Assembly (NCBI GenBank): GCA_038049695.1
Contig: CP142451.1
Coordinates: forward strand, 71,812,001-71,876,000
Reading direction: 5' to 3'
Origin: Cinnamomum chago
Lineage: Eukaryota; Streptophyta; Magnoliopsida; Laurales; Lauraceae
Length of the DNA: 64,000 nucleotides
Shown: positions 4,772-47,036 of the stretch, in pieces
Position numbering within the stretch: position 1 is the stretch's first letter
Layout of the letters: each line of letters begins with the position of its first letter
Translations under genes and position numbers: made by a program
The notes under the pieces: model-generated
Database searches by the model: none
Told to the model about the DNA's origin: nothing
What the model saw: the letters and a program-made list of their open reading frames with translations, nothing else

Positions 4772-6980
4772 TGAAAGTCCTTGGGATCCTAACCCTAGAG
4801 GGGGGGTGAATAGGGTGTGCTACAACTATGACCAATTTAGAGCAATTTTAACTTTTTAAAGCAAACTAGTCACATGTGATGATTAATCAAACAATATGCG
4901 GAAGCTAATAAAAGAATCACCACAAGCAAGCACCACAACACCAAGGTTTATAGTGGTTCGGCCTCAATGCCTACATCCACTACCGGCTTGTGAATCCAAC
5001 ACCCCATCGGATTTCCACTATTTATGCTTTTTCAAAGGCTAAGCAATAACCTATACAATATGCTTTCCAAGGCTAAGCAATAACCTTACATTGATGTTTT
5101 TCAAGGCTTAACATCAACCTATACACTATGCTTTTATAGGCTAAGCAATAACCTCTTCAACCACAAGGTTGGTTATCTCACAAAGTTAGTGTCTAACATA
5201 CACTTGATGGAGATACAAATAAGCTCATTACATTGCCTCTTAATTAGGCGGATATGGAAGTGAAAAACTAATACACACTCACACTATGGATGCAAAGATG
5301 AAAGTACATGAAGTGTGTGTGTGTGGTCCTCAATCATTTTGAAAATGAAAGTTCATAAATGTATGCCTAAGGCTTTTGAAAGTTTTAGCTCAAAAACATT
5401 TATGATTGAGGAAGTGATGCAATCACATGTTAAAAGTAACAACTTGTTAATGATATCAAAGTTACACAAGTTGTATGAAATGGATTAGCTCTAAACATGT
5501 GATGCATAGGGATGTCAATCAAATCAACAATGAAGATCAAAACATAAAAATAGATTTGATTGAAATGAGGGGACAAATCATATGTAATTATAAAGACAAC
5601 TTGAAAATGATTTACCAATCAAAGTAAGGCAAGTTGTGAAACTTTAAAACAATAATACACATATGATTTGTAATGATGTTGGATCCAAAACATAAGATAC
5701 ATTTGAGAGAGATTTTCTTATGATGGAAAAACAACAACCAATGATTCAACAAAGTATATGAATCATGTTACATATTTCATTAACATGATCTACTTAGATT
5801 TACCAAAGATAAAGTACTACTTTGATGAATCAATGGTGATGTATCCAAAACAATAGATCTATTCAAAATATAACACATGCTAAGGATACAACACATCATA
5901 GGTTAACATGTTACTAAGATTTACCAATGATAAAACAAAACATGAAAACATATGATTTGTAAAGAAGTTGAATCCAAAACATAAGTTAGTTTTGAAAAAG
6001 ATGTTCTTATGATGGAAAACAACAACCAAAGATTCAACCAAGTATATGGATCATGTTACATATGATTTCAAAGGTTTTTTCATTAACATGATCTACTTAG
6101 ATTTACCAAAGTTAAGTACTACTTGGATTGAATCATATGGTGTTGTATCCAAAACAATAAATCAACTCAAAACATAAAACATGTTAAGGACACAACACAA
6201 ACATAGTTTAACATGCTAGAAATGATTTACCAAAAATAAAACAAAGCATGAAAACATATGATTAAGGAAGGAAGAGCCTACTTGGTGGTTTAACTTCATT
6301 AATCCAAGCTTTAGCTTTCCTAATGCTCCCCTTCATCCCTTGGTTCTTTTCCCTTTTGATATGCCTCAATACCTCTCAAGGAGGGGCTAAAAATTCCCAA
6401 CTTTTGGCAAGGGAAAGAACTCATATTTATAGCAAAAAGTTGCCAACGGCTAGTCCTCGGTCGACCTAGACACAGGTCTCGGTCGACCGAGAACACACAA
6501 CGGTCGTATTTCTGACCATTGGTGCTCCCAGGCAAATTTTGCCTGCAGTTGTCTCGGTCGACCGAGACCTGTATCTCGGTCGACCGGCGACACTGCCGGG
6601 ACAACCCCCTTTTGACAAAAAATCCAACTTTTGCCATTTCAAAGTTATTTCTTTGGGGGACCTTTTGGCCACTAAATCAAGCTTGGAAAACATGTTTTAA
6701 AGATTCTAATGGTTTTTAAAACATGACATAAAAAGCCTAAAAAGATTCAAAACTTTTAAAACAAAGGCTTGCTTGATTTCTTGAAAACTCTTTTCTAAAA
6801 CAAATGCATCCAAGATAAAAAGACAAATCATGCATAAATCAATACTTTTACAAATCTTAAAAGCAATGCATGAATAAAACAAGATTTCAAGATTTCTTAA
6901 ATCAATGCATGTGTGTGTGAATCAAATGATGCTAATATGAAAATGCATCCATCAAATTGCAATCTACAAAATTCCTAACA
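4772..6980 (-). mobile_element. Solo LTR of the Sirevirus-like hairpin family
   Basis: This is the reverse complement, diverged, of the LTRs at 39258-41459 and 44198-46365. On the minus strand it starts TGTTAGGAATTTTG and ends in the CTCTAGGGTT...GGA region. An exact 5-bp duplication CATCC flanks it (4767-4771 and 6981-6985), proving insertion as one unit. At 2209 bp it matches the 2202 bp intact LTR. The inverted-repeat arms described in the intact copy are preserved here, for example TCAATCAAATC/GATTTGATTGA near 5516-5566, while loops differ. No second LTR or internal sequence is present. Confidence 0.92.
6424..6431 (-). promoter_or_regulatory. LTR TATA box (TATAAATA on minus strand)
   Basis: TATAAATA read on the minus strand, directly downstream of the CTCGGTCGACCGAG palindrome cluster (about 6455-6590). 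The same arrangement is found in the two intact LTRs of the family. It is the likely core promoter of the LTR. Confidence 0.55.
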
Positions 6981-6985
6981 CATCC

Positions 6986-10002: not shown

Positions 10003-10130
10003 CTGTTCGGATGTTCAGGTCTGAACAAAGTCCATTTGTTCGGACCTGAACGTCCGAACAAAATCATTTTGTTCGGACCTGAACATCCGAAAAAAATGAT
10101 TTTGTTCGGATGTTCAGGTCCGAACAAACC
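10003..10130. repeat. Right subterminal array of TTCGGA/TCCGAA palindromes
   Basis: Four copies of a near-palindrome of the type TTCGGATGTTCAGGTCCGAA, about 33 bp apart and alternating in internal orientation. They sit about 500 bp from the right end of the MULE. With the left cluster they form subterminal repeats that could be transposase-binding sites; that function is inference. Confidence 0.8.
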
Positions 10131-38794: not shown

Positions 38795-39257
38795 ATGTTT
38801 TACAGGACAATGGTCGGTAGACCCACCCGATCTAATAACGGACCACCACCTGAGGGTAGTTCTTATCAGAATGGCCCTAAGAATCAATTTCATCAATTCA
38901 TGGCAGCATTCATTCAGTCCCATAAGGACTTGGGTGAACAAAGTCAAAGGCAGAATGAGAGTCAGACTGTATTCTAGGCCCAGATGCTTGAAGTGGTGCA
39001 GAAAGTGGGCCAGCCACAGCCCAAGGAATATGATCTCAACGAGCTGGTTGAGAAGTTTAGGAAGAGGTTTCCACCAGAGTTCCATGGTATAGAGGACCCC
39101 GCTGTCGTTGATGAGTGGGTTGTCCAAATGGAAAAGATTTTTGAGGTGTTCCAGTGCACAGGTGTTCAGTAGGTGCAGTTAGCTGCCCACATGTTCCGTG
39201 GGGCAGCAGAAAGATGGTGGAAGACTATTAAGAACCCCTACGAGAAGATCACTGAAG
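38795..39257 (+). pseudogene. gag of chromovirus B, N-terminal part
   Basis: The likely start is ATG 38810 (MVGRPTRSNNGPPPEG). The frame reads into the gag core PPEFHGIEDPAVVDEWVVQMEKIF and AAHMFRGAAERWWKTI. TAG stops interrupt it after SQTVF (about 38975) and after FQCTGVQ (about 39170), both where Gln would fit (CAG to TAG). The frame is then cut by the Sirevirus-like element; the last five bases TGAAG are the target duplication. Confidence 0.85.
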
Positions 39258-39630
39258 TGTTAGGAATTTTCTATATTGCAATTTGATGGATGCATTATCA
39301 TTCAAGCATCATTTGATTTACACACTTGCATTGGTTTTAAGTAAACTTGAAATCTTGATTTTTTCATGCATTGTTTTTAAGATCTTGTTTTATGCATGAT
39401 TTGTTTTTTAATCTTGGATGCATTTGTTTTAGAAAAGAGTTTTCAAGAAATCAAGCAAGCCTTTGTTTTAAAAGTTTTGAGTCTTTTTAGGCTTTTTATG
39501 TTCATGTTTTAAAAACCATTAGAATCTTTAAAACATGTTTTTCAAGCTTGATTTAGTGGCCAAAAGGTCCCCCAAAGAAAAACCTTCAAATATGCAAAAG
39601 TTGCAAAGGGAGGCTGTCCCGGCAGTGTCG

Positions 39631-39776
39631 CCGATCGACCGAGAGGCAGGTCTCGGTCGACCAAGACAACTGGAGGTAAAATCTGCAGTTTTGAACTGAA
39701 ACCTCCAACGGTCAGAAATCTGACCGTTGTGCCTTCCCGGTCGACCGAGACCTCTTTGTCGGTCGACCGAGGACTA
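39631..39776. repeat. CTCGGTCGACCGAG palindrome cluster in U3
   Basis: Four blocks around the palindrome GGTCGACC (one changed to GATCGACC, one followed by AAGAC) sit in the 160 bp upstream of the TATA box. The same cluster is at 44571-44716, and on the minus strand at about 6455-6590. Confidence 0.9.
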
Positions 39777-39795
39777 GCCGTTGGCAACTTTTTGC

Positions 39796-39803
39796 TATAA
39801 ATA
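39796..39803 (+). promoter_or_regulatory. TATA box of the 5' LTR
   Basis: TATAAATA about 20 bp downstream of the last GGTCGACCGAG palindrome, conserved in all three LTR copies in the window (second at 44736-44743). Likely RNA polymerase II core promoter for the genomic transcript. Confidence 0.6.
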
Positions 39804-39976
39804 TGAGTTCTTTCCCTTGCCAAATGTTGGGAATTTTTAACCCCTCCTTGAGAGGATTTGAGGCATATCAAAAGGGAAAAGAACCAAGGGATGAAGGGGA
39901 TGATTAGGAAAGCTAAAGCTTGGATTAATGAAGTTAAACCACCAAGTAGGCTCTTCCTTCCTTAATCATATGTTTG

Positions 39977-40900
39977 CATGCTTTTGTTTTATTTTTGGTA
40001 AATCATTTCTAGCATGTTAAACTATGTTTGTGTTGTGTCCTTAACATATTTTATGTTTTGAGTTGATTTATTGTTTTGGATACAACATCACATGATTCAA
40101 TCCAAGTAGTACTTAATTTTGGTAAATCTAAGTAGATCATGTTAATGAAAGAACTTTGGTAAATCATATGTAACATGATCCATATACTTGGTTGAATCTT
40201 TGATTGTTGTTTTCCATCATAAGAACATCTCTTTCAAAACTAACTTATGTTTTGGATTCAACTTCTTTACAAATCATATGTTTTCATGTTTTGTTTTATC
40301 ATTGGTAAATCTTGTAACATGTTAACCTATGATGTGTTGTATCCTTAGCATGTGTTATATTTTGAATAGATCTATTGTTTTGGATACATCACCATTGATT
40401 CATCAAAGTAGTACTTTATCTTTGGTAAATCTAAGTAGATCATGTTAATGAAATATGTAACATGATTCATATACTTTGTTGAATCATTGGTTGTTGTTTT
40501 TCCATCATAAGAAAATCTTTCTCAAATGTATCTTATGTTTTGGATCCAACATCATTACAAATCATATGTGTATTATTGTTTTAATGTTTCACAACTTGCC
40601 TTACTTTGATTGGTAAATCATTTTCAAGTTGTCTTTATAATTACATATGATTTGTCCCCTATTTTCAATCAAATCTATTTTTATGTTTTGAGCTTCATTG
40701 ATGATTTGATTGACATCCCTATGCATCACATGTTTAGAGCTAATCCATTTCATACAACTTGTGTATCTTTGACATCATTAACAAGTTGTTACTTTTAACA
40801 TGTGATTGCATTCTTCCTCAATCATAAATGTTTTATGAGCTAAAACTTTCAAAAGCCTTAGGCTTACATTTATGAGCTTTCATTTTCTAAATGATTGAGG
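39977..40900 (+). repeat. Hairpin-tiled part of the LTR
   Basis: Successive inverted repeats with arms unique to each unit. Perfect pairs: CATGCT 39977/40011, GATCATGTTA 40135/40171, GTTGAATC 40191/40255, ACAACTTG 40591/40625, TCAATCAAATC 40665/40703, ACAACTTG 40754/40782, CCTCAATCAT 40816/40891 enclosing TCATAAATG 40822/40867. Two pairs match 9 of 10 (40031/40078, 40335/40382). Loops repeatedly contain TTGGTAAATC (six copies: 39995, 40119, 40156, 40302, 40422, 40610) or TATGTTTTGR-type words. The same region recurs in the 3' LTR. Confidence 0.85.
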
Positions 40901-41461
40901 ACTACACACACACACTTCATGTACTTTCATCTTTGCATTCATAGTGTGAGTGTGTATTAGTTTTTCACTTCCATATCCGCCTAATTAGGAGGCATTGTAA
41001 TGAGCTTAATTGAATCTCCATCAAGTGTATGTTAGACACTAATTTAGTGAGATAACCAACCTATGGTTGAAGAGGTTATTGCTTAGCCTATAAAAGCATA
41101 ATGGATAGGTTGATGTTAAGCCTTGAAAAACATCAATGTAAAGGTTATTGCTTAGCCTTGGAAAGCATATTGTAAAGGTTATTGCTTAGCCTATTGAAAA
41201 GCATAAATAGTGGAAATCCGGTGGGGGTGTTGGTTCACAAGCCGGTAGTGGATGTAGGCATTGAGGCCGAACCACTATAAATCCTTGTGTGATGGTGATT
41301 GCTTTGTGGTGATTCTTTTGTTAGCTTCCGCATCTTGTATGATAAATCATCACATGTGACTAGTTTGTTTTAAAAGAAGTTAAAATTGTTAAAATTGGTC
41401 ATAATTGGAGCTCACCCTATTCACCCCCCCTCTAGGGTTCGGATCCAGGTGGAATTACAAG

Positions 41462-41473
41462 TGGTATCAGAGC
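41462..41473 (+). other. Primer-binding site of the Sirevirus-like element
   Basis: TGGTATCAGAGC, complementary to initiator-Met tRNA, two bases after the 5' LTR. Confidence 0.92.
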
Positions 41474-41601
41474 GGGTTACTCCATTTTAGGGCTTAACAA
41501 CTCGGAGTTGATCCTTGCTAGATTTGAACCCTAGTGTTGTGATTTATTGCATATCTTTTTAAAGATTTCCACTATGATTGGAAATGATATTTTCCCTAGC
41601 C

Positions 41602-43440
41602 TCTTTGCACCACTCTAAGACTTTTGCAAGTTATATCTTCTAGAGTTGGTGAGTCCTAAAAGTGATCTCTCAAGGACACCTTTTCAAGGCTTTAGGTGAA
41701 TTTTCAAAGGTAAACTATTTGAGTAACCTTAGGCCTTGATCCCTCTAGACCAACCTTTTCTTTTTAGTTATATCTATTTGTTGGTCTTGTTACATTTGCA
41801 TTTTGTTGCTTTATAGTCACATCTTTTAAAATGCAATGTTTCTTTGTGATCATTTGATTTTGTCTTCATGAACTTTTAAAGTTATATCTCATGGTTTTCA
41901 AAATCCTTTGATTGCAACTTTGGAAAATGTTCTAAGCTTTATTAGTTATATTTCTAGAAGCATTTTCCTTGAAATTTGTTTCCTTGTGCCTAATTATGAT
42001 TATATCATTTGAAAGGAAATAATTTTTACAAACAATTTGCATCTTTGCTCTATTAGTTACATTCTTTATGCAAATTGATTTTGTTGACTTACATTGCATG
42101 GTTGGATATGTTTCATTGATTTGCATGTTTGTGCCTAACTTGGTAAATTCTCATTAATGCATTTTGATGATTGTTTATGAGCTTTATAGTAAAATCTTGT
42201 ATTTGAGCTTTTTAAGTACATATGTGATTTTATGTGCTAAGTTCATTTGGTATAGACCTCATATCCATTTTCCATTGCATTGTAAGCTTTGTACATTTGC
42301 TAAGAGTGGAGATGTTACATGATAGCTTAATGAATCATTTTAGATGAATTGGAATTAAACCATTGTTCTTAATAGGTATATCCATTTATGTGGTCCATCT
42401 TCATCTTTATGTGATTCATGATGTCTCTCTAACTTCATACCTTCTTGTGCTTACATAGTTATATTCTTTTGATGATATGGTATGAGTTAGATCTTGAGTG
42501 TTGATTGATCCTCTCTATGCAAATGTCAAATTGTTCTATGTATGGTTGTGGTATTGATTATATTTGTTGAAACCATACTAGAACTCAAATCCATCCTCTA
42601 TGCCTTATAGTCATATCTTTATGGATGGTTATGATGTTGATTCATGTAGATTTTCTTGGTGTCATCTTTATACATGTTTCAACTTCATAAGTAGTGTTCT
42701 TAATCATATGAAACTCTTTGAAACCCATTTCTCATATTTCTATATGTTTGATGGATATCTTAGATGTTGAATTCATATGATTTTGACACTTTGGAAATTG
42801 CATGCATTACATAGTAATATCCTTTTGCATTGCAATTTACCTTGTTCATCACTATGCTCAATAGTCATATTTTTAAAAGTGATGAATATGCATTTATGAT
42901 GCTTGATGGAATTTTGTCACATTCTTGCTCTTTATCATGTTATCAAATTCAATTGGATTCAATTGGTATAATGTTTTGATTGATTTGATTTCTTGTGAAT
43001 GTGATAAACTTTGTGTGCATTGGATTGAACTTGATAAGTAATATGATTGTTCCTTGTCACACACCATTAGCATCATAATGCTCATGTTGCCACCTCTCTT
43101 TTGCTTTTATAGGTATATCTCATGACCACCATGTTTATGTGTTCATAATATTGGTTGGTTATTAGTTGAGGTTGGCTTCATGTTTGAATTTCATTTCACT
43201 CAATTTGCACTTTAATAAGTCATATTTATTGATTGAATGAAATGATTTTCAAAATCTTACATAGCATATGATTTTCATAAGTAATATTGATTGATGCTAT
43301 GTTTGAGTAAACCCCATATCATGGATAGCTCTAATTTGGATTTCTCATAATAGTTATACTTTTAAATCCATTTTAGAGTGATTGATTTATTAAGTCATAT
43401 CCTAAATCTCAATTGGTATTCTTTGTTTGTCCAATTGATA
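41602..43440 (+). repeat. Internal array of stem-loops with shared loop motif
   Basis: About 20 occurrences of a loose motif around TATAGTTATATCTTT, often preceded by TGCTT or TGCCT, at irregular 50-110 bp spacing. At least 14 are flanked by inverted repeats unique to each unit. Examples: AGACCAAC 41747/41780; TTGCATTTT 41796/41828; GGAAAATG-TTCTA 41922 with its one-bulge complement at 41955; TTTCCTT 41979/42013; CAATTTGCAT 42033/42068; CTAACTTCATACC 42429 with a one-bulge complement at 42479; TTCTATGTATGGTT 42534/42571; AAATTGCATGC 42795/42827; TTCATCACT 42845/42878; ACATAGCAT 43259/43294; CTCTAATTTGGATTT 43329/43364 (13 of 15). Loops are mostly 20-27 nt. Confidence 0.85.
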
Positions 43441-43609
43441 TCCATGATTGCTTTTCTCTTTTGACCTAGCTCTCTTTTGGTAATTTGATCATATGAGCTT
43501 TATAGTTAAATGAATCTAATCCTTTCTTTGAAGTTGACCCTCACTTGGTTAAACCATCTTCTTCTTGTACCTAATAGTTAAATCTTTGTCAAGAGTTTGA
43601 CAAAAGGAG

Positions 43610-44197
43610 AGAATGGATTGAGGGGGAGTGTAAACCTTCATAGGAAGTATTAGTTTTGATCAAATTGACCCTTGGATTGCCTTTAAGCCCTTAGAGACTA
43701 CTACCACACATGATAGCCTGTTATGTATTTCATTTTCGATTTCATTTGTTAACAGGTGCTACTAAAGGTATTTTCTTTGTTTCATGTGTGTAGGTACCTT
43801 TGCAATTTAATGGCAAAGGGGGAGAAAATATGCAAGTTCTCAAAAGGGTGAAGAGAATGTCTAAACTTCCTAAGGGGAGAGTTGTGTATGATCTTCTACA
43901 AGGGGAGAGAATACATACCTTGCCAAAGGGAGAAAGAGGCATGGTCAAAGGGGGAGAGCTAATAGAAGAAAGAAAGCTTGGAAGCTAAAGAAGATGCTTG
44001 GATAAAGAGAGAAAGAAGAAAGAAAGCTTGAAGGTTGATCAAGCTCCAAGCATCATGAAGATTGAAGTCCAAGAGCCCAAGCTTTGAGAAGAAGCATCCA
44101 AGAAGATTTCAAGCCTTGTCCAGCTGAGGGGGAGCTGAAGACTAAGTGTGTATTTTCAGTGGTGAGTGTGTTGCCATCAAATTGCAAAGGGGGAGAT
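43610..44197 (+). other. Multiplied polypurine tracts before the 3' LTR
   Basis: Words like AAAGGGGGAGA occur at about 43621, 43814, 43873, 43900, 43926, 43946 and 44124, and finally GCAAAGGGGGAGAT directly before the LTR at 44198. Only the last is in the classical priming position. Tandem extra copies of the tract are, as I recall, a reported Sirevirus feature. The 62-codon frame at 43800-43988 is a reading of these G/A-rich words. Confidence 0.85.
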
Positions 44198-46365
44198 TGT
44201 TAGGAATTTTCTAGATTGCAATTTGATGGATGCATTATCATTCAAGCATCATTTGATTTACACACTTGCATTGGTTTTAAGTAAACTTGAAATCTTGATT
44301 TTTTCATGCATTGTTTTTAAGATCTTGTTTTATGCATGATTTGTTTTTTAATCTTGGATGCATTTGTTTTAGAAAAGAGTTTTCAAGAAATCAAGCAAGC
44401 CTTTGTTTTAAAAGTTTTGAGTCTTTTTAGGCTTTTTATGTTCATGTTTTAAAAACCATTAGAATCTTTAAAACATGTTTTTCAAGCTTGATTTAGTGGC
44501 CAAAAGGTCCCCCAAAGAAAAACCTTCAAATATACAAAAGTTGCAAAGGGAGGCTGTCCCGGCAGTGTCGCCGGTCGACCGAGAGGCAGGTCTCGGTCGA
44601 CCAAGACAACTGGAGGTAAAATCTGCAGTTTTGAACTGAAACCTCCAACGGTCAGAAATCTGACCGTTGTGCCTTCCCGGTCGACCGAGACCTCTTTGTC
44701 GGTCGACCGAGGACTAGCCGTTGGCAACTTTTTGCTATAAATATGAGTTCTTTCCCTTGCCAAATGTTGGGAATTTTTAACCCCTCCTTGAGAGGATTTG
44801 AGGCATATCAAAAGGGAAAAGAACCAAGGGATGAAGGGGATGATTAGGAAAGCTAAAGCTTGGATTAATGAAGTTAAACCACCAAGTAGGCTCTTCCTTC
44901 CTTAATCATATGTTTGCATGCTTTTGTTTTATTTTTGGTAAATCATTTCTAGCATGTTAAACTATGTTTGTGTTGTGTCCTTAACATATTTTATGTTTTG
45001 AGTTGATTTATTGTTTTGGATACAACATCACATGATTCAATCCAAGTAGTACTTAATTTTGGTAAATCTAAGTAGATCATGTTAATGAAAGAACTTTGGT
45101 AAATCATATGTAACATGATCCATATACTTGGTTGAATCTTTGATTGTTGTTTTCCATCATAAGAACATCTCTTTCAAAACTAACTTATGTTTTGGATTCA
45201 ACTTCTTTACAAATCATATGTTTTCATGTTTTGTTTTATCATTGGTAAATCTTATAACATGTTAACCTATGATGTGTTGTATCCTTAGCATGTGTTATAT
45301 TTTGAATAGATCTATTGTTTTGGATACATCACCATTGATTCATCAAAGTAGTACTTTATCTTTGGTAAATCTAAGTAGATCATGTTAATGAAATATGTAA
45401 CATGATTCATATACTTTGTTGAATCATTGGTTGTTGTTTTTCCATCATAAGAAAATCTTTCTCAAATGTATCTTATGTTTTGGATCCAACATCATTACAA
45501 ATCATATGTGTATTATTGTTTTAATGTTTCACAACTTGCCTTACTTTGATTGGTAAATCATTTTCAAGTTGTCTTTATAATTACATATGATTTGTCCCCT
45601 ATTTTCAATCAAATCTATTTTTATGTTTTGAGCTTCATTGATGATTTGATTGACATCCCTATGCATCACATGTTTAGAGCTAATCCATTTCATACAACTT
45701 GTGTATCTTTGACATCATTAACAAGTTGTTACTTTTAACATGTGATTGCATTCTTCCTCAATCATAAATGTTTTATGAGCTAAAACTTTCAAAAGCCTTA
45801 GGCTTACATTTATGAGCTTTCATTTTCTAAATGATTGAGGACTACACACACACACTTCATGTACTTTCATCTTTGCATTCATAGTGTGAGTGTGTATTAG
45901 TTTTTCACTTCCATATCCGCCTAATTAGGAGGCATTGTAATGAGCTTAATTGAATCTCCATCAAGTGTATGTTAGACACTAATTTAGTGAGATAACCAAC
46001 CTATGGTTGAAGAGGTTATTGCTTAGCCTATAAAAGCATAATGGATAGGTTGATGTTAAGCCTTGAAAAACATCAATGTAAAGGTTATTGCTTAGCCTAT
46101 TGAAAAGCATAAATAGTGGAAATCCGGTGGGGGTGTTGGTTCACAAGCCGGTAGTGGATGTAGGCATTGAGGCCGAACCACTATAAATCCTTGTGTGATG
46201 GTGATTGCTTTGTGGTGATTCTTTTGTTAGCTTCCGCATCTTGTATGATAAATCATCACATGTGACTAGTTTGTTTTAAAAGAAGTTAAAATTGTTAAAA
46301 TTGGTCATAATTGGAGCTCACCCTATTCACCCCCCCTCTAGGGTTCGGATCCAGGTGGAATTAGA
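44198..46365 (+). repeat. 3' LTR of the Sirevirus-like element
   Basis: 2168 bp, identical to the 5' LTR apart from about five substitutions and loss of one 34-bp GGTTATTGCTTAGCC unit. The terminal CA is changed to GA (ATTAGA), after which the TGAAG duplication follows. Confidence 0.95.
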
Positions 46366-47036
46366 TGAAGATGTAGCCTGGAAGACCTTTATTGAGCAGC
46401 TCTAGAAGAAATTTATCCCCGAGCACTACAGGGATCAGAAGATGGAGGAGTTTGAGAGATTGGTGCAGGGTGATCTGCCAGTGCAGGGTGATCTGCCAGT
46501 GCAGGAGTATGAGATCTCCTTCACACATTTATCCAGATTTGCAGAGGCTCTGATTCAGCCTGAATCAGAGAGGGTTCGAAGGTTTATCAAGGGACTGCGA
46601 GTAGATATTAAGATGCAAGTTCAACGCAACAAACTGATCGACTATGATGATGTGGTCAAAGAAGCATATTGGGTTGAAGAATCCCTGAAGGATGTGATTG
46701 CCTTGGAGCAGCAGAGGATCTTGGCGTTGATACCTCAACCCAAGTCACAGAGTTCATCATCCCATCACTTTCAGCAGCCAGCACCTAAAAGGCTACGGTA
46801 CGAGCCAGTACTTCGACGGTTGCCTCAGCGGATCACTTGTGCTTATTGTGGGGGAAATCACCATGCTCGCGATTGCAGGAAGCGGTCTGGGGTGTGTTTT
46901 CATTGTGGAGACCCAACGCATAAAGTTCGCAACTGTTCAGGGAAGACAGGAGTAGCACCATCAGCATTCCCAGCTCCGGTGCCAGGCCTCCACATCCTCG
47001 CAGCCGTTGAGACAGGTGCCACCTGCACAAGCTAGA
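46366..47036 (+). pseudogene. gag of chromovirus B, C-terminal part with two zinc knuckles
   Basis: gag resumes at EDVAWKTFIEQL, has a TAG, then reads from MEEFERLVQG (46442) to 47036. An in-frame 18-bp tandem duplication yields VQGDLPVQGDLPVQEYE. The retrotransposon gag core continues with FTHLSRFAEAL and RFIKGLR. Two CCHC-type zinc knuckles follow (CAYCGGNHHARDC, one residue short of the classical spacing, and CFHCGDPTHKVRNC), which bind the genomic RNA. The frame then shifts in a Q/P-rich linker. Confidence 0.88.

Follow-up and report, generated by a model that had tools for sequence, protein, structure and literature searches.

Hairpins with private stems and a shared loop core in a gag-less, Sirevirus-like LTR retrotransposon of Cinnamomum chago

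The internal part of an LTR retrotransposon in Cinnamomum chago carries about two dozen predicted hairpins in a row, which have a degenerate loop core of about TATAGTTATATCTTT in common. Since the arms are private to each unit, the loops are shared and the pairing is conserved, the simplest reading is that many stems present one loop. Selection very probably preserves this hairpin RNA structure, and the hairpins are most likely repeated protein-binding or packaging sites on the RNA of a gag-less, Sirevirus-like Copia lineage, an interpretation that we hold with about even confidence. The element lies in a stretch of 64,000 nucleotides (GenBank assembly GCA_038049695.1, contig CP142451.1, positions 71,812,001 to 71,876,000, forward strand), here called the window, in which position 1 is the first letter.

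An earlier sequence-only reading of this DNA had ended the array at 43440, but the hairpins continue to about 43621. It had also described the loops as mostly 20-27 nt long, which did not hold: lengths across 24 examined sites spread from 11 to 46 nt, and only 11 of the 24 fall in that range. The units are as follows.

41608..41651, + strand: hairpin with loop core, arm score 7.7
41684..41739, + strand: hairpin with degenerate loop core, arm score 10.6
41747..41787, + strand: hairpin whose arms are kept in families B, C and D (one G.U)
41792..41839, + strand: hairpin with loop core, arm score 9.9
41844..41917, + strand: hairpin with loop core; after 41915 an extra 320-367 nt is present in 20 of 23 other copies
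41922..41968, + strand: hairpin with loop core, arm score 10.8
41970..42028, + strand: hairpin with loop core, arm score 12.0
42030..42080, + strand: hairpin with loop core, arm score 10.8
42331..42418, + strand: hairpin with loop core, inside a block of 93-94 nt missing from 13 of 23 other copies
42428..42491, + strand: hairpin with loop core, arm score 11.6
42533..42584, + strand: hairpin with degenerate loop core, arm score 12.0
42582..42638, + strand: hairpin with loop core TTATAGTCATATCTTT, arm score 8.4; this pattern was also searched in the genome
42629..42690, + strand: hairpin with degenerate loop core, sharing part of its left arm with an arm of the preceding unit
42795..42838, + strand: hairpin with loop core, arm score 9.8
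42843..42888, + strand: hairpin with loop core
43183..43253, + strand: hairpin with loop core, arm score 15.5
43259..43302, + strand: hairpin with loop core
43321..43386, + strand: hairpin with loop core, arm score 12.4
43549..43621, + strand: last counted hairpin, loop core AATAGTTAAATCTTT, arm score 10.9

The retrotransposon that holds these units spans 39258-46365 and is bounded by the target-site duplication TGAAG. Its other parts are given here.

39258..41459, + strand: 5' LTR (TG...CA), identified by BLAST against the 3' LTR and by reading its ends, and preceded by TGAAG at 39253-39257
39738..39769, + strand: palindromic repeats CGGTCGACCG at 39738 and 39760 in the LTR, found by pattern count
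39960..40640, + strand: LTR stretch holding six GGTAAATC sites, all flanked by arms (weak at two of them), downstream of a TATA-like box
41462..41473, + strand: primer binding site TGGTATCAGAGC
43622..44195, + strand: linker with five GGGGGAG tracts, at 43622, 43818, 43950, 44128 and 44189
44174..44229, + strand: inverted repeat CCATCAAATTGC / GCAATTTGATGG, flanking the polypurine tract and the AT/TG junction
44198..46365, + strand: 3' LTR, ending in TTAGA and not TTACA, followed by TGAAG at 46366-46370

The two LTRs are 99.6% identical over 1914 nt (BLAST) and the window copy is therefore young. Its + strand contains no open reading frame of at least 130 amino acids and gag and pol are absent, in agreement with the initial description of a gag-pol-less LTR retrotransposon. 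According to the accessible text of PMC2829016, Sireviruses are marked by multiple polypurine tracts, an AT/TG junction, an inverted repeat at the last tract and CGG-CCG palindromes in the LTR. The window element resembles them in these marks. It has the five GGGGGAG tracts upstream of the 3' LTR (43622 to 44189), the last of which is the polypurine tract at that LTR; the AT/TG attachment junction with an inverted repeat bordering the terminal tract (44174-44229); and the CGGTCGACCG palindromes (39738, 39760) upstream of the LTR promoter, with the TATA-like box TATAAATATGAG following at 39796. The core of CGGTCGACCG is the same as that of the repeated motif given for a Vitis Sirevirus in the accessible part of PMC2829016. 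The gag and Copia-type pol of a Sirevirus are missing from the window copy, no pol was seen in the relatives scanned, and the accessible text of PMC2829016 does not describe a shared-loop hairpin array for Sireviruses. The window element is thus a non-autonomous relative of Sirevirus (Copia) and not a full member. Judged from neighbouring open reading frames, a Gypsy-type element seems to surround 39258-46365. The window element's family is also represented by a solo LTR at 4784-6981 (- strand), with GGATG on either side.

The repetition of the loop core and the private pairing of the arms both exceed what shuffled sequence gives. An iterative matrix search of 41458-44197, in which the 23 best sites were taken (a preset number), reached a summed score of 290.7 compared with 199.0 +/- 14.3 and a maximum of 234.4 for 60 dinucleotide shuffles put through the same procedure; the about 20 loose motif copies noticed at first sight are therefore real. 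Arms were compared at 22 sites, namely 20 of the 23 matrix sites (without 41658, 42482 and 43763) and two added by eye. When left arms were paired with the right arms of other units, own partners scored higher under all four settings, with z from 8.1 to 10.2 for alignment score and from -9.3 to -10.9 for duplex energy, and in each setting none of 20,000 permutations reached the observed mean. A second test used a fixed matrix and all sites above threshold. On the + strand of the array it gave z 9.3 for 25 sites, 14 of which had an arm score of at least 8. The corresponding values were z 2.2 on the - strand of the array, z 1.0 on the + strand of the LTR (10 sites), and 0.2, 2.9 and -0.3 in the rest of the window, where the set with z 2.9 includes one unrelated long palindrome near 10104. 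This inverted repeat, on the - strand, has an arm score of 24 within 30-nt flanks. Sites combining the motif with a stem (score at least 8) number 6.9 per kb on the + strand of the array, 1.0 on its - strand, 1.4 on the + strand of the element's LTRs, and 0.05 and 0.14 in the rest of the window. In the related family B, introduced below, own arms exceeded swapped arms in five of five arrays (z 6.9-8.3). Between units, left arms resemble one another no more than shuffled sequences do (4.20 compared with 3.94 +/- 1.26, at an own-arm score of 9.98 in 19 units), and loops score 7.44 compared with 5.57 +/- 1.24, a figure that is partly due to the choice of these 19 units for the motif. The claims of the sequence-only reading that arms match within a unit (here z about 8-11 above swapped partners) and that they are unrelated between units have thus stood, and shuffled controls, which it had named as a possible refutation, fail to reproduce the motif and arm pattern.

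Folding energy by itself was rejected as evidence for the array. The stretch 41602-43640 folds at -488 compared with -350 +/- 13 for 40 shuffles (z -10.8), but this is not specific since the - strand (z -9.0) and the LTR (z -10.5) fold comparably, and the part with the open reading frame of a family B copy, L042, reaches z -6.0. In that coding part (internal region 86-1690) own arms at motif sites gave z 2.2.

It is very improbable that the region is a decayed ordinary repeat array or a set of chance AT-rich palindromes without function. The region is indeed AT-rich, several of its direct repeats are copies of the loop, and many stems are broken on one side (see below). Against this, neither shuffles nor swapped arms reproduce the pattern, the array has no tandem period of unit size, arms pair within units though their similarity between units is that of shuffled sequence, and paired bases are conserved.

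The genome searched for relatives was the window's own (1.06 Gb, 14 contigs). The window's family, A, has many copies, with pieces 90-97% identical among the best 40 of 6812 candidates scored. Compared with 20 of the 23 other aligned copies, the window copy lacks a segment of 320-367 nt after 41915, which holds five or six more hairpins in the folds examined, and a block of 93-94 nt over one hairpin (42333-42425) is missing in 13 of the 23. The exact pattern TTATAGTYATATCTTT had 484 matches in the genome and its reversed control 7. Among 20 stretches around such matches three are gag-less (L034, L036, L046) and the others match as family B, in which a zinc-knuckle open reading frame is followed by the hairpin array and then the linker. 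An open reading frame of 468-536 amino acids with a CCHC box was present in 14 of 16 loci with an excisable internal part and absent in 2 of 16; no frame of pol size lies behind it in L042 and L030, the two copies scanned. A pattern of 20 nt from the 3' end of this frame had 3503 exact matches in the genome and none for the reversed control. The window element thus belongs to the branch without gag in a lineage that is very abundant, with copies in the thousands. Families C (L050, L051, L058) and D (L055) have the open reading frame or its end, and six or seven hairpins (so that the array is shorter in these two related families); they also have palindromic repeats, and a second open reading frame starts in them. 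The arms of their first hairpin are nearly those of 41747-41787, with one G.U variant in L055, and its loop core is another version (CATAGTCATATG, CATAGGTATATG). In three regions copies are regularly spaced, at about 5.3 kb (G000:C6:41997422-42043055), 5.1 kb (G000:C5:36730334-36806000) and 6.0 kb (G000:C1:77728981-77794834), which suggests tandem LTR-internal arrays of these elements.

Conservation within these families points to selection on the RNA structure, one of the two origins that had been offered for the pattern. The array alignment comprised 37 rows. It excluded the partial copies L008 and L021, L041, which misses the start anchor, and L029, L034, L038 and L043, whose internal part was not excisable; tandem copies were mostly entered once. 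Folds were minimum-energy predictions with a pairing distance of up to 110 nt. In comparing paired with unpaired columns the reference copy was removed, columns in which it differs from the rest were dropped, and columns were treated as independent. In all 12 reference folds, drawn from families A, B and D, the variation of paired array columns was 0.45-0.78 of that of unpaired columns (largest p 0.0026). The linker behind the array, a control available for A and B only and not for D, showed no difference between paired and unpaired columns in eight of eight. In each of A and B, loop positions that are alike between units varied about 2.5 times less than the other loop positions. Between A and B, changes at these positions were only somewhat rarer than elsewhere in the loop (16 of 118 compared with 34 of 167), and change was greater in loop cores (15.4%) than in sequence outside (12.0%) and in arms (9.9%).

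Compensation gave a divided answer. Over the whole array, compensated double changes between A and B numbered 11, 13, 7 and 15 in four reference folds, compared with 0-5 for shifted pairings, but most of them are supplied by the 5' part of the array, which is more divergent, and one-sided breaks (48-50) outnumber them. In the 17 clearest stems of the window 15 one-sided changes broke a pair, 3 kept it and 1 double change was compensated, which is no excess over shifts, so that the expectation of compensated arms holds for the whole array and not for its clearest stems. For families C and D, 22 loci were aligned; L049, L056, L057, L063 and L066 were dropped (short or without match), as were L052-L054, which are tandem copies of L051. 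Of 34 double changes under the L055 fold, 26 were compensated, a share above that of shifts, and 12 pairs showed compensation where shifts gave 7-18; the L051 fold showed no excess. Family A alone (24 rows) had 33 compensated double cells compared with 4-30 in shifts, which is too little signal to count as evidence. Stem mismatches are mostly U.U and G.U and hardly ever A.A or A.C (26:0 and 9:2 in L003), which points to the sense RNA as the folding strand. Variants within families likewise favour T.T over A.A (37:12 in A) and the strand is T-rich, and part of this strand bias may be mutational. Selection for structure is thus supported by the conservation of paired columns and core loops within families and by A-B compensation above shifts, and the second proposed origin, a mechanism that makes palindromes around one core, is not needed but keeps a small probability.

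A second layer of hairpins, with GGTAAATC as a second loop core, lies in the transcribed part of the LTR. All 12 occurrences of GGTAAATC on the + strand of the window fall in the two LTRs of the element (39960-40640, 44900-45580), and 5 of 7 on the - strand fall in the solo LTR. The stretch 39960-40640 contains a tandem duplication and its GGTAAATC sites are not all independent. In an alignment of 18 rows, which includes both LTRs of some elements, the ratio of paired to unpaired variation was 0.43-0.64 in the hairpin stretch (p < 0.05 in four of five references), and 1.01, 0.56 and 0.55 in the part of the LTR after it, the last two also significant. One LTR hairpin occurs with two sets of arms in family B, one in the group L033/L038/L039 and the other in the group L042/L044/L045/L047, around a similar loop and within the same outer stem, and family A has a third version.

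This hairpin bears on an explanation by copying and not selection, in which snap-back or template switching of a polymerase or reverse transcriptase at the loop core would write inverted copies, and palindrome correction would keep the arms alike. We regard it as unlikely. Arms unrelated between units, entire hairpins present or absent as a block, the joint difference of both arms between the two family B groups and the lack of compensation excess in the 17 clearest stems are all consistent with it. Copying alone leaves the lower variation of paired columns, the conserved core loops and the bias towards U.U and G.U mismatches unexplained. Since whole hairpins are gained and lost and the arms of the LTR hairpin change jointly, there is still room for recombination or template switching within the selective interpretation: new stems may arise in this way, and selection would then retain those that pair.

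The open reading frame of the relatives, about 470-530 amino acids with a zinc knuckle, offers a candidate reader of the loops. The CCHC box is present in 14 of 14 family B frames, and the frames look constrained by their median dN/dS of 0.46 (91 pairs of 14 frames). A Pfam search with one family B frame gave only matches below the cut-off, to a coiled-coil family and to zinc knuckles, and no capsid domain. Two database proteins (P0001 and P0002) were the only relatives before and after a profile search, in each of which about 8000 candidates were scored; they have a similar length, are 75% and 64% identical and come from ENA and JGI contigs. The protein database, including the profile search, yielded no sequence link to Sirevirus Gag. 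The second protein, searched against the window's own genome, gave 8307 first-look candidates, the best 85 of which were scored; the resulting 130 match rows all lie in frames of 451-534 amino acids, and neither an autonomous partner nor a longer gag-pol frame is among them. IMG/VR contigs had no match with one DNA pattern or with P0002. The second open reading frame of families C and D begins with MARTKQTARRPPKK in L058 (L058:1368-1763) and reads the same in L050; L051 reads otherwise, and L055 (L055:1502-2395) has MARTKQTSRRP. Residues 2-9 of MARTKQTARRPPKK are identical to the beginning of the histone H3 tail, ARTKQTAR. The L055 frame matches Pfam PF20167 'putative plant transposon protein' (E 7e-13) and the L058 piece has no Pfam match. 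Titles and abstract openings among the literature matches listed for histone mimics include none on plant elements.

For the reading as binding or packaging sites, we propose that the sense RNA would fold and that the feature kept would be a loop of this kind on a stem, repeated many times. Stem sequence would be free provided that pairing holds, and stems could thus diverge between units while loops stay alike. The loops would be repeated, cooperative binding sites for a protein, for which the zinc-knuckle protein of the relatives is the first candidate, and the loops may favour uptake of the RNA into the particles of a putative autonomous helper, in the way that dispersed packaging signals work in small RNA viruses. 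Host proteins or the Gag of the helper are alternative candidate readers. A more specific version, which we consider possible but doubtful, is a satellite lineage with a two-part packaging module: a zinc-knuckle protein without capsid or pol, and the two to three dozen hairpins that it would read, with copies competing multivalently for helper particles and the gag-less branch keeping the hairpins only and parasitising both.

The same anatomy would be expected if the hairpins were a platform for host RNA-binding proteins in export, stability or translation control and not for packaging. As the array persists in the gag-less branch, where the open reading frame is missing, the reader may come from outside, and the LTR leader has hairpins too; nothing indicates a particular host protein or known RNA element, as Rfam had no match at E <= 1 within 39257-46365, and we judge a host platform unlikely. 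A role in silencing, in which the hairpins would be sources of small RNAs or a compact structure preventing double-strand synthesis, has in our view a small chance of being correct. It would fit an abundant element with many short, perfect stems, but it does not predict a shared loop core, and stems of about 8-20 pairs would be short for plant Dicer substrates.

Sireviruses, LARDs and TR-GAGs each account for a part of the anatomy and none covers it in full. LARDs (large retrotransposon derivatives) of Triticeae have long LTRs and a non-coding internal part with conserved RNA structure, and are Gypsy-type elements of grasses; we know of no unit-wise hairpins with one loop core in them. The window copy likewise has a non-coding internal domain between long LTRs, but its non-coding marks are those of a Copia Sirevirus and not of Gypsy, and families B-D carry an open reading frame instead. 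TR-GAGs are terminal-repeat retrotransposons with an open reading frame for a gag domain and without pol between their LTRs. Families B-D may be akin to them, with a putative gag-type frame and no pol in the copies scanned; they differ in that the frame has no recognised capsid domain (in family B the zinc knuckle lies below the Pfam cut-off) and is followed by the hairpin array, and the window copy has no frame at all. In RNA viruses and hepatitis B virus, dispersed packaging signals are stem-loops that share a short recognition motif for the coat or core protein, according to the accessible parts of PMC7612645, PMC6281560 and PMC3593212. The likeness is several stem-loops along one RNA with a common loop motif, here predicted from sequence; binding and assembly were shown there, whereas the likeness here is one of anatomy and conservation, and the hairpins of the present array are adjacent to one another in RNA that does not code. 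Cassandra TRIMs are also non-autonomous, with predicted RNA hairpin structure and tandem LTR-internal-LTR arrays, but form one super-hairpin from two LTRs with 5S sequence and not an array of small hairpins, as far as the accessible text goes (PMC7215508). The literature searched, which covers few subscription journals and was accessible in part, contains no array of hairpins with shared loops and private stems in LTR retrotransposons.

To our knowledge, how RNAs of plant LTR retrotransposons are chosen for packaging and why gag-less elements succeed in numbers are poorly known. With about two dozen hairpins per RNA in several families, the effects of stem and loop can be told apart. The array makes multivalent RNA recognition in a retroelement open to test, and stem evolution can be traced from unit to unit. 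If the two-part module were true, thousands of copies would compete multivalently for helper particles.
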